Assembly: GCA_027488855.1 (NCBI GenBank)
Contig: JAIYAV010000361.1
Coordinates: 1 to 40,524 of the forward strand
From: Saprospiraceae bacterium
GTDB taxonomy: Bacteria; Bacteroidota; Bacteroidia; Chitinophagales; Saprospiraceae
Length of the DNA: 40,524 nt
Direction: 5' to 3'
In this document: positions 11,974 through 13,620 of the stretch, piece after piece
Numbering within the stretch: the stretch's first letter is position 1
Layout: each line of letters starts with the position of its first letter
Program-made: the position numbers and the translations under genes
Notes under the pieces: generated by a model
Database searches by the model: none
Seen by the model: only the letters and a program-made list of their open reading frames with translations
What the model was told of the DNA's origin: nothing

Positions 11974-11994
11974 AATAGTTGGCAATCCCAATTA
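11974..11994. promoter_or_regulatory. shared inverted-repeat box upstream of protoglobin
   Basis: AATAGTTGGCAATCCCAATTA. Its half sites TTGG and CCAA face each other across five bases. It is identical at 19 of 21 positions to the box at 12642-12662. It lies 47 bp before the protoglobin ATG and just upstream of TACCTTGC (11999-12006), a near-match to the -7 box, so a bound protein could block the polymerase. Confidence 0.65.
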
Positions 11995-12041
11995 TTTGTA
12001 CCTTGCTGCCACATTCTTTAACCATTTAAAAATATTCATCA

Positions 12042-12626
12042 ATGGAATCTTCAATCAAAGGGTATGATTATGGTGGAGCGCATTTGAGTCCGTCGCCACT
12101 TGAGCTTCAAGACCTAGAGCTGCTAAAACAAACCTTATTATGGACAGAGACCGATGAAGAGGCGCTCAAACTGGCTGGTCAAGTACTGACAGACCAAACC
12201 GATGAGGTGCTTGACCTTTGGTACGGCTATGTAGGTAGCCATCCTCATTTGCTCAAATACTTTTCCCATCAAGGAGCACCTAACCTGGATTACCTTACTG
12301 CGGTTCGCCAGCGTTTTGGCCAATGGATTCTCGACTTGTGTAATCGTCCCTATGACCAAACTTGGCTCAATTACCAACACGAAATTGCCCTTCGCCACCA
12401 TTCCTCCAAAAAAAACCGCACCGATGGGGTAGAAGCCGAACCTTTGATTCACTTCCGCTACCTGGTGGCCTTTATTTTCCCAATTACCTATACCATCAAG
12501 GGCTTTTTATCCAATAAGGGGCATGATGCTGTTCAAGTAGAAGCCATGTACAACGCCTGGTTTAAGGCGGTAACCCTGACCACCTTGTTGTGGTGTTATC
12601 CTTATGTCAAGGACGGGGAGTTTTAA
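12042..12626 (+). CDS. protoglobin-family haem protein
   Basis: A 194-residue single-domain protoglobin. The family is known from Methanosarcina acetivorans (about 195 residues), where the haem binds O2, CO and NO and His120 is the proximal ligand. Here YQHEIALRHHSSKKN places His119/His120 at the same point, followed by the family pattern FRYLVAFIFPITYTIKGFL and the closing WCYPYVKDGEF. The N-terminal extension KGYDYGG is typical and shapes the ligand tunnels. There is no sensor output domain, so the protein acts alone as a gas binder, scavenger or detoxifier. It is followed 51 bp later by the DUF2024 gene; both carry the same inverted-repeat box upstream, so they are probably controlled together by the MarR protein further down. 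Confidence 0.92.
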   Translation: MESSIKGYDYGGAHLSPSPLELQDLELLKQTLLWTETDEEALKLAGQVLTDQTDEVLDLWYGYVGSHPHLLKYFSHQGAPNLDYLTAVRQRFGQWILDLCNRPYDQTWLNYQHEIALRHHSSKKNRTDGVEAEPLIHFRYLVAFIFPITYTIKGFLSNKGHDAVQVEAMYNAWFKAVTLTTLLWCYPYVKDGEF

Positions 12627-12641
12627 AATTTTTTTCATTGA

Positions 12642-12662
12642 AATAGTTGGCATTGCCAATTA
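12642..12662. promoter_or_regulatory. shared inverted-repeat box upstream of DUF2024 gene
   Basis: AATAGTTGGCATTGCCAATTA. The core TTGGCATTGCCAA (12647-12659) is a perfect palindrome around one T. It lies 15 bp before the ATG at 12678 and matches the box before protoglobin at 19 of 21 positions. This looks like the better of two operator copies. Confidence 0.7.
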
Positions 12663-12677
12663 AAAATTCCAATCATT

Positions 12678-12950
12678 ATGCAAGCTGCAGTTTTTGATAC
12701 TTATGTGCCAACCCGACAAGGAGGCACCATGCATTTTGACATTGTGGTGCCACAGGGAACTTCTTTTGAACTCGTTTCTGCTTATGGCAAAACCTATCTT
12801 ATGGGTAAAGGGCAATCAGGGCAGCCATTGAGCAGCAATGAATGTCGCTTTTGCCATATCGAAAATGCGAACACTGAGATGGAGTTGGCTTTTGAAGCTC
12901 AAGGCTATTTCATCATTGAGATGGAGGGGTGTGAACTCCCAATGGTGTAG
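12678..12950 (+). CDS. small DUF2024-family protein
   Basis: A 90-residue cytosolic protein that fits the DUF2024 family: it opens AVFDTYVPTRQGGTMHFDIV, has the central cysteine pair in NECRFCHIENA (Cys56, Cys59, His60), and ends GYFIIEMEGC (Cys85). The function of DUF2024 is unknown. Conserved Cys-x-x-Cys-His suggests metal binding or redox chemistry. It lies between protoglobin and the MarR regulator, has its own copy of the shared box, and is followed by a strong hairpin. I infer a role with the globin in gas or redox response; this is not established. Confidence 0.85.
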   Translation: MQAAVFDTYVPTRQGGTMHFDIVVPQGTSFELVSAYGKTYLMGKGQSGQPLSSNECRFCHIENANTEMELAFEAQGYFIIEMEGCELPMV

Positions 12951-12975
12951 CAATTTTTAAATTATCTGTACAAAA

Positions 12976-13008
12976 TGTCTGGCGGTTGTGTAATTTAACC
13001 GCCAGACA
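12976..13008. promoter_or_regulatory. perfect 12-bp inverted repeat before the MarR gene
   Basis: TGTCTGGCGGTT (12976-12987) and AACCGCCAGACA (12997-13008) are exact reverse complements separated by 9 bp, ending 12 bp before the MarR ATG. There is no T tract after it, so it is a poor intrinsic terminator. It may be an operator for autoregulation or an RNA hairpin in the leader. Confidence 0.65.
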
Positions 13009-13020
13009 AACCGTCAATTT

Positions 13021-13620
13021 ATGGCCAATCCTTTCGACTTAAATTACCAGAACCAGCATCTTGAAAGCAAAATTGTGGTGGCTTTGGAGCGTGTTTCAGA
13101 GGCTTTCCGGGTGTTGCTTTGGCAACGCGGACAAGCTTTAAAACTCAGTCCTATCCAAATCCAGATTCTGATTTTTTGTAAGTTTCATGCTGCTGAAAAA
13201 TGTAAAGTAGGGTATTTGGCCCAGGAGTTTAACGTAGATAAGTCTACCATTAGCGACTCGGTAAAGGCTTTAGAGCAAAAGCAACTCATTGAAAAAGTCA
13301 CCACCCCTGAAGATGGGCGCAGTTACACTATTTATTTGACCAAGGAAGGTGCCGCAGTTGCTTTACAAGTTGCATCCTTTGCCTTGCCTTTCGAAAAACC
13401 GATTGAACAGTTAAGTGAAATTCAAAAAGAGGTCTTGCTATCGAGTCTCTTAGAGTTGATCCATAAGTTACAACAAGTAGGAATCATCAGCCTGCAAAGG
13501 ATGTGTTTGGTGTGTCAACACCATCAAAAGGACGAACAAGGGCATTTTTGTACACTACTTGGAATGAGGCTCAATACCGCTGATTTGCGGGTAGACTGCC
13601 CAGATTTTTTAGGAACCTAG
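13021..13620 (+). CDS. MarR-type regulator with C-terminal four-cysteine cluster
   Basis: A 199-residue regulator. Residues about 20-125 form a MarR winged helix: [15 protein letters not shown], then the recognition helix region [23 protein letters not shown], then the wing [17 protein letters not shown]. The dimerisation helices extend to about 158. The unusual part is the tail: Cys162, Cys165, Cys177 and Cys193 in a C-x2-C-x11-C-x15-C array with nearby histidines, which could hold a zinc ion or an iron-sulphur cluster. Such a cluster would let the protein sense NO, oxygen or redox state. It follows the protoglobin and DUF2024 genes on the same strand and is the obvious candidate to bind their shared boxes. 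Its stop overlaps the convergent aroQ stop by 4 bp. Confidence 0.85.

Follow-up and report, generated by a model that had tools for sequence, protein, structure and literature searches.

A MarR-type regulator with a four-cysteine tail, a palindromic operator and a small operon form a module which, as judged by genome comparison, is real and far more widespread than the initial annotation of this DNA proposed. The window, meaning the whole stretch of 40,524 nucleotides analysed here (contig JAIYAV010000361.1 of a Saprospiraceae bacterium), carries a version of this module with genes for protoglobin and a DUF2024 protein. The best explanation, to which we give a probability of about 0.62, is a dedicated MarR repressor operon for redox stress.

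Genes and boxes of the window

The three genes named by the initial annotation (protoglobin, DUF2024 and MarR) were all matched by Pfam profiles, and the spacing it gave for the tail cysteines 162, 165, 177 and 193 was read again from the window sequence. The following features were located:

11974..11994, + strand: putative operator box 1, AATAGTTGGCAATCCCAATTA; precedes protoglobin; kept in sister genome G182
12042..12626, + strand: protoglobin, 194 aa; PF11563, E 1.1e-29
12642..12662, + strand: putative operator box 2, AATAGTTGGCATTGCCAATTA; precedes DUF2024; perfect TTGGCA-T-TGCCAA
12678..12950, + strand: DUF2024 protein, 90 aa; PF09630, E 2.5e-31; contains Cys-x-x-Cys-His
12976..13008, + strand: hairpin with 13-bp stem between DUF2024 and MarR; from folding of a 70-base stretch
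13021..13620, + strand: MarR-type regulator, 199 aa, with four-cysteine tail; PF12802, E 2.9e-11
13504..13599, + strand: MarR tail from Cys162 to Cys193, C-x2-C-x11-C-x15-C; from the sequence; four cysteines invariant

The protoglobin matches PF11563 over its full length with 103.9 bits (cut-off 25) and aligns over residues 4-194 to the protoglobin 2veb from Methanosarcina acetivorans (E 6.9e-75); it would be expected to bind heme and gaseous ligands. The DUF2024 protein covers profile positions 1-81 of 81 in PF09630 with 107.8 bits (cut-off 27), and its single solved relative at E <= 0.1 is 2hfq (E 1.3e-16), in which the CxxCH motif is kept. The regulator exceeds the cut-offs of both PF12802 (43.8 bits, cut-off 27) and PF01047 (37.2 bits, cut-off 24.6) and adopts a MarR fold in the predicted model, whose mean pLDDT is 83. 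For the 70-base stretch that holds the hairpin between DUF2024 and MarR, a folding energy of -22.8 kcal/mol was obtained (z -5.28), and 0 of 200 shuffled versions were equally stable; hairpin-like repeats of different sequence were seen by eye 5' of MarR in some relatives as well.

The two 21-bp boxes agree at 19 of 21 positions and each directly precedes a gene, both as originally described, with box ends 47 bp (protoglobin) and 15 bp (DUF2024) from the start codon. By itself, TTGG-N5-CCAA is not rare (3 occurrences in the window compared with 1.94 expected). The longer pattern TAGTTGGN5CCAAYTA is found exactly at two places only in the genome of 8,365,988 bases, and these are the two boxes; 11 further listed places carry one mismatch each, two of them being the boxes on the opposite strand, and the reversed control of the pattern gave 3 and 2 places at no more than one mismatch in the same genome. 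Among three genomes of the genus, TAGTTGGCANTNCCAATTA occurs exactly only at the two window boxes and at two matching places in G182, and across its 19 bases box 2 is identical between the window and G182 and box 1 differs in one base. Chance was rejected as an origin of the boxes: simulations gave no site of the relatives' operator at >=14/16, and the core is exact at the two genome sites and has counterparts in G182. No box of its own was detected for MarR in the window, where the best score was 8/12 positions. A second four-cysteine MarR is encoded in the same genome (L025, G000:C150:34942-35526); as seen by eye it adjoins TPR-like and prohibitin-like frames, and no box above 12/16 was found in that locus.

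Operator and gene neighbourhood in relatives

Relatives were compared in 126 loci, which are 131 loci minus the repeats or near-copies L048, L052, L073, L092 and L144, and in 80 named loci, which are the best 80 of 516 relatives with near-copies included. One alignment with a wrong-strand row does not enter the counts. The operator in relatives is AGTTAGGANTCCTAACT, with 182 sites at >=14/16 across the 126 loci, compared with 0.0 in each of five sets from first-order simulation; at 13/16 there were 19 sites versus 3.4 simulated. A site of >=14/16 is present in 100 of the 126 loci, 5 reach 13, 2 have the TTGGC version and 19 have none above 12/16, the last group including possible misses because some of these loci end at contig ends or have flanks of 1.5 kb. 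At least one counted site, the 14/16 box of L062, lies inside the MarR frame. In 76 of the 80 named loci the operator is within 2.8 kb of MarR. A stricter pattern, allowing at most one mismatch, is present in 40 of 45 genomes and absent from 5; 106 of the 109 listed matches, strands counted separately, fall in MarR locus ranges as judged by coordinates alone in a scan that left out L124. Two of the other three matches are both strands of a single site, located at a further MarR operon in a genome that already has one, and the remaining match sits inside a reading frame. A large regulon beyond the operon was rejected on these numbers. The initial annotation had made its case depend on conservation in relatives, and box and gene order were both found to be kept across several families.

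Promoter elements were counted at boxes of >=13/16 located 10-150 bp 5' of a gene. Before the gene for a 77-residue protein, 67 of 83 boxes run on, at a single fixed distance, into TAnnTTTG, which is the -7 box of Flavobacterium (excerpt of PMC9723704); 29 matches to TTTG begin 7 or 8 bases 5' of the box. At another fixed offset the same element accompanies boxes 5' of DUF2024 (20 of 35) and of MarR (12 of 15), and it is not general at boxes before the gene for a 241-residue protein (24 boxes) or protoglobin (6 boxes). Such overlap of operator and promoter elements, as seen in relatives, is consistent with repression by blocking of RNA polymerase. Canonical TAnnTTTG does not abut either window box, so that promoter overlap in the window can be proposed by analogy only.

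Of 198 genomes from the same order, 18 have the MarR type (E 1e-10), 11 have DUF2024 and 7 have both; in 6 of these 7 genomes, the exception being G168, the two genes are within about 0.2 kb of each other. Protoglobin over the cut-off is present in 5 of the 198 genomes, 4 of which have MarR, all within 0.6 kb. Across 395 genomes of the phylum, the corresponding numbers were 28 for MarR (E 1e-20), 19 for DUF2024 and 18 for protoglobin over the cut-off. Co-occurrence in Bacteroidota, which the initial annotation had proposed as a check, was counted in this set: MarR and DUF2024 are found together in 13 of the 395 genomes and within 1 kb in 13/13 (Fisher p 1e-12, kinship ignored), and MarR and protoglobin in 6 and within 0.6 kb in 6/6 (Fisher p 8e-4, kinship again ignored). 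Six of the 19 DUF2024 genomes in the phylum set lack this MarR type, and at some MarR-less DUF2024 loci the neighbour is the 77-residue protein or a frame resembling either truncated globin or YggS.

Within 2.6 kb of MarR, the 80 named loci hold the 77-residue protein in 71 cases, DUF2024 in 52, a 241-residue secreted protein in 25, protoglobin in 7 and truncated globin in 4. From this comparison, the common core is MarR, the 77-residue thioredoxin-like protein and DUF2024; a relative of the 77-residue protein on a Pseudomonas record exceeds the Thioredoxin_3 and Glutaredoxin cut-offs. A closed unit of protoglobin, DUF2024 and MarR was rejected in view of such neighbour counts. What stands of the original three-gene proposal is one module with a shared operator; its particular gene combination is a local variant, as protoglobin occurs in 15 of 126 loci. 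Among these 15, L090 alone also has the 77-residue protein, compared with 86 of the 111 other loci (p 1.3e-7, simple count). This mutual exclusion fell short of significance in tree-based pairs, and the 14 protoglobin changes on the tree are soft because 21 of 121 inner branches are starred. A search for the 77-residue gene in G182 and in the genome of the window, run without a positive control, gave no match.

Heme partners vary between loci and include protoglobin, truncated globin, cytochrome P460 and HTHP. Cytochrome P460 (PF16694, E 1.7e-35 in L064) is the neighbour of MarR at 5 of 126 loci, and L120 has a truncated globin upstream together with a ScdA_N/hemerythrin protein. One strand of a Hymenobacter plasmid carries genes for catalase, a 241-residue-like protein (by eye), hexameric tyrosine-coordinated heme protein, protoglobin and DUF2024, then a weak Rho-binding-antiterminator match and MarR. 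Such partners suggest NO, oxygen or peroxide chemistry. A functional setting for DUF2024, which the initial annotation had anticipated, is offered by an operator-bearing MarR operon with recurring redox and heme partners.

Several further observations were made in these loci. The 241-residue secreted-looking protein recurs in the operon (L059 450-1175 and 31 aligned relatives), has the motifs HPHW and PGMPMYMDSPG, and had no family in Pfam or NCBIfam. Another family is encoded directly 3' of MarR in L109 (5588-6322) and 23 other loci, and its scanned member is YggS (TIGR00044), a protein of pyridoxal-phosphate homeostasis. The Rho-binding antiterminator ROF (L237, L238, L239 and L248), or a weak match to it (L074 2090-2464 and L235 4291-4578), recurs in operons of two phyla. 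Signal-peptide-like starts were seen by eye in DUF2024 proteins of L093 (4268-4642), L109 (4298-4636) and L120 (4653-4991), a hint of exported forms, and in second protoglobin copies of L060 (320-967) and L141 (3569-4225), which are possibly exported. In L045 (G379:C39:322126-322374), two stop codons interrupt DUF2024 and the neighbouring genes read through.

Beyond Bacteroidota, the MarR type adjoins thiol peroxidase and thioredoxin genes in Nostoc, with a globin gene 2.7 kb away, superoxide dismutase and TlpA genes in Rhizobium, MOSC genes in Phaeobacter and Leisingera, and a cytochrome P460 gene on the Thermus plasmid pTT27; in Sphingomonas, a redoxin gene is two places away. Laboratory strains with the unit include Thermus thermophilus HB27, where MarR is next to cytochrome P460, and Marinigracilibium pacificum KN852 (L075). 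No such neighbours were present in the Paraburkholderia and Sinorhizobium fredii records, and two further records are without annotation there. On plasmids of Enterobacter and Lelliottia, genes for YggS and PtsJ are near the unit. The unit on plasmids of Enterobacter, Lelliottia and Pseudomonas (MarR, 77-residue thioredoxin/glutaredoxin, DUF2024 and Rho-binding antiterminator) shares the four-cysteine MarR tail and DUF2024 with the window, but its MarR gene is divergent, its operator is TATCGANTCGATA-like and no globin lies within the 8-kb stretches shown.

Recognition helix and cysteine tail of the regulator

At residue 73, 110 of the 126 MarR proteins have Thr, 14 have Ser and 2 have Asp. 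Asp73, together with Ser75, occurs only in the proteins of the window and G182, which are also the only loci with TTGGC boxes among the 126 compared, and the structure model places the recognition helix at residues 74-86. The TTAGG box is absent from the window genome and G182 at up to two mismatches. As far as the aligned sequences tell, regulator and operator change together; the Asp73/TTGGC pairing amounts to a single evolutionary event in one genus, and a Hymenobacter box has a TGCCAA right arm, yet its MarR lacks the Asp73 and Ser75 changes. A 15/16 box adjoins the Nostoc MarR, and the Thermus box before P460 is weak (12/16), a score within the reach of chance. Two further patterns were, like these boxes, noticed post hoc: three rhizobial records have ATAGGANTCCTAT palindromes, of operator type ATATAGGANTCCTATAT, and TATCGANTCGATA-like palindromes occur in a group of Proteobacteria whose helices read TKGTVSQ or similar, with the exception of Leisingera (11/16). 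Comparison lends support to a window MarR that would bind a palindromic operator at the nearby operon. Its predicted control of protoglobin and DUF2024, already put forward in the initial annotation, is well supported by the pairing with the operator and by the near-confinement of the operator to MarR loci, both of them comparative evidence.

All four tail cysteines are present in 126 of 126 MarR proteins compared and in 17 of 17 members of a hand-picked cross-phylum set, the window protein being included in both; this invariance is partly built in because relatives were chosen by full-protein similarity. In the cross-phylum set the gap between the middle cysteines varies from 10 to 16 residues. 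The model gives high confidence for the MarR domain, mean pLDDT values of 64-74 for blocks of the tail and 45 for the end with Cys193 (residues 191-199), and it predicts, with modest confidence, short strands at 168-171, 174-177 and 182-184. A fold search with the model matched mostly residues 8-155 and barely covered the tail, and none of the 60 solved chains listed out of 83 aligns beyond profile residue 154; MepR, ST1710 and other MarR structures likewise align with little of the cysteine tail. The tail is likely a metal-bound sensing site.

Among known systems, the closest working parallel is ArnR from Corynebacterium, which resembles the window MarR as a winged-helix protein with C-terminal cysteines and represses the globin gene hmp. 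According to an excerpt of PMC12343034, it holds a [4Fe-4S] cluster and represses this flavohaemoglobin gene until NO acts. The same excerpt describes three conserved cysteines (179, 193 and 223) in ArnR, in contrast to the four differently spaced ones of the window MarR; the regulons also differ, and the window protein does not have the ArnR-type arrangement. SufR is also a winged-helix protein, carries [4Fe-4S] and, according to the title of a cited paper, responds to NO in one species; unlike the predicted regulon of the window MarR, that of SufR concerns Fe-S assembly, and the 15 NCBIfam matches of the window protein include no SufR model. NsrR of the Rrf2 superfamily is described as an Fe-S repressor of hmp that is released by NO; the window MarR had no PF02082 match at E 1e-3. 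Searches of CC-licensed PMC literature brought up no account of the three-gene unit.

Signal, alternative explanations and meaning

In the explanation which we prefer, a MarR dimer would bind the palindromic box at the protoglobin and DUF2024 promoters and keep the operon silent. A metal, more probably an Fe-S cluster than zinc, would be bound by the four tail cysteines, and reactive nitrogen or oxygen species would react at the tail site and loosen DNA binding. Release would then switch on the genes for the heme protein and DUF2024, and read-through would extend expression to the MarR gene. We infer repression rather than activation, reactive nitrogen or oxygen species as the type of signal, and scavenging or repair as the roles of protoglobin and DUF2024. 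Against this explanation it has to be said that only 11 of the 80 named loci have a globin within 2.6 kb, that the 19 loci and 5 genomes without a box do not fit, and that the pyridoxal-related neighbours YggS and PtsJ are left unaccounted for.

A sensor specific for NO, with a tail [4Fe-4S] cluster nitrosylated as in ArnR and an operon that detoxifies NO, is possible but doubtful. Protoglobin, truncated globin and cytochrome P460 in one regulon speak for it, as do the hemerythrin-type protein with truncated globin in L120, the globin near the Nostoc unit, the parallel with ArnR as an NO-responsive [4Fe-4S] winged-helix repressor of hmp (excerpt of PMC12343034) and a Ma-Pgb variant that reduces nitrite and isomerises peroxynitrite in vitro (excerpt of PMC4020757). 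However, the majority of loci are without a globin, and ArnR differs in number and spacing of cysteines. Furthermore, the signal may be broader than NO because the MarR type elsewhere adjoins genes for thiol peroxidase, superoxide dismutase, TlpA and MOSC proteins, to which the nearby redoxin can be added; general oxidative or nitrosative stress is probably the signal, in preference to NO alone.

Small ligands commonly trigger MarR proteins. If a small ligand or an oxidant acted at the usual MarR pocket, the tail could be a structural zinc site, and its pattern of C-x2-C, two further cysteines and short strands may resemble a zinc knuckle or ribbon; the recurrence of redox proteins in the neighbourhood and the variable spacing in the middle of the tail (although zinc sites can vary too) make this unlikely. 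A role of the operon in pyridoxal-phosphate homeostasis or carbonyl stress, instead of gas or oxidant stress, is quite improbable: the YggS-type family directly 3' of MarR in 24 loci, YggS and PtsJ near the plasmid units and the YggS-like frame next to some MarR-less DUF2024 genes would agree with such a role, but the window unit has no YggS-type gene, and operons with this operator repeatedly include heme proteins and redoxins. Hardly any weight can be given to the boxes being RNA hairpins or terminators, or sites of another regulator, since the hairpins around the box before DUF2024 in two relatives (z -6.4 and -5.4) are set against weak folding of the window box 2 stretch (z -1.3), boxes also at a first gene with a -7 element, and a recognition helix that varies jointly with the operator.

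Returning to the redox-stress operon, a wider joint reading is tentative. In it, MarR proteins with the four-cysteine tail would make up a so far unrecognised class of redox sensors with a metal cluster, spread over at least four phyla, or five if two metagenome records named Acidobacteriota hold. They would control a small operon under a TAGGANTCCTA-type site, replaced by TATCGANTCGATA in one proteobacterial branch, with DUF2024 and the 77-residue thioredoxin-like protein as usual effectors and different NO/O2-binding heme proteins swapped in. Protoglobin might be able to replace the thioredoxin-like protein, and DUF2024 might act in metal or thiol repair under redox stress.

Among 5.39 million CC-licensed PMC papers, DUF2024 occurs in a single one, as a table entry labelled metal-binding (PMC6393860). 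Its link with a regulator and an operator, and the redox and heme partners that recur around it in more than one phylum, now make a role for this protein testable. Placing protoglobin under a specific predicted repressor, where it alternates with other heme proteins, offers a handle on its physiology. The sensing chemistry of the MarR tail is hypothetical; if the tail holds a cluster, these regulators would constitute a new family of sensors whose operator could serve for genome searches.
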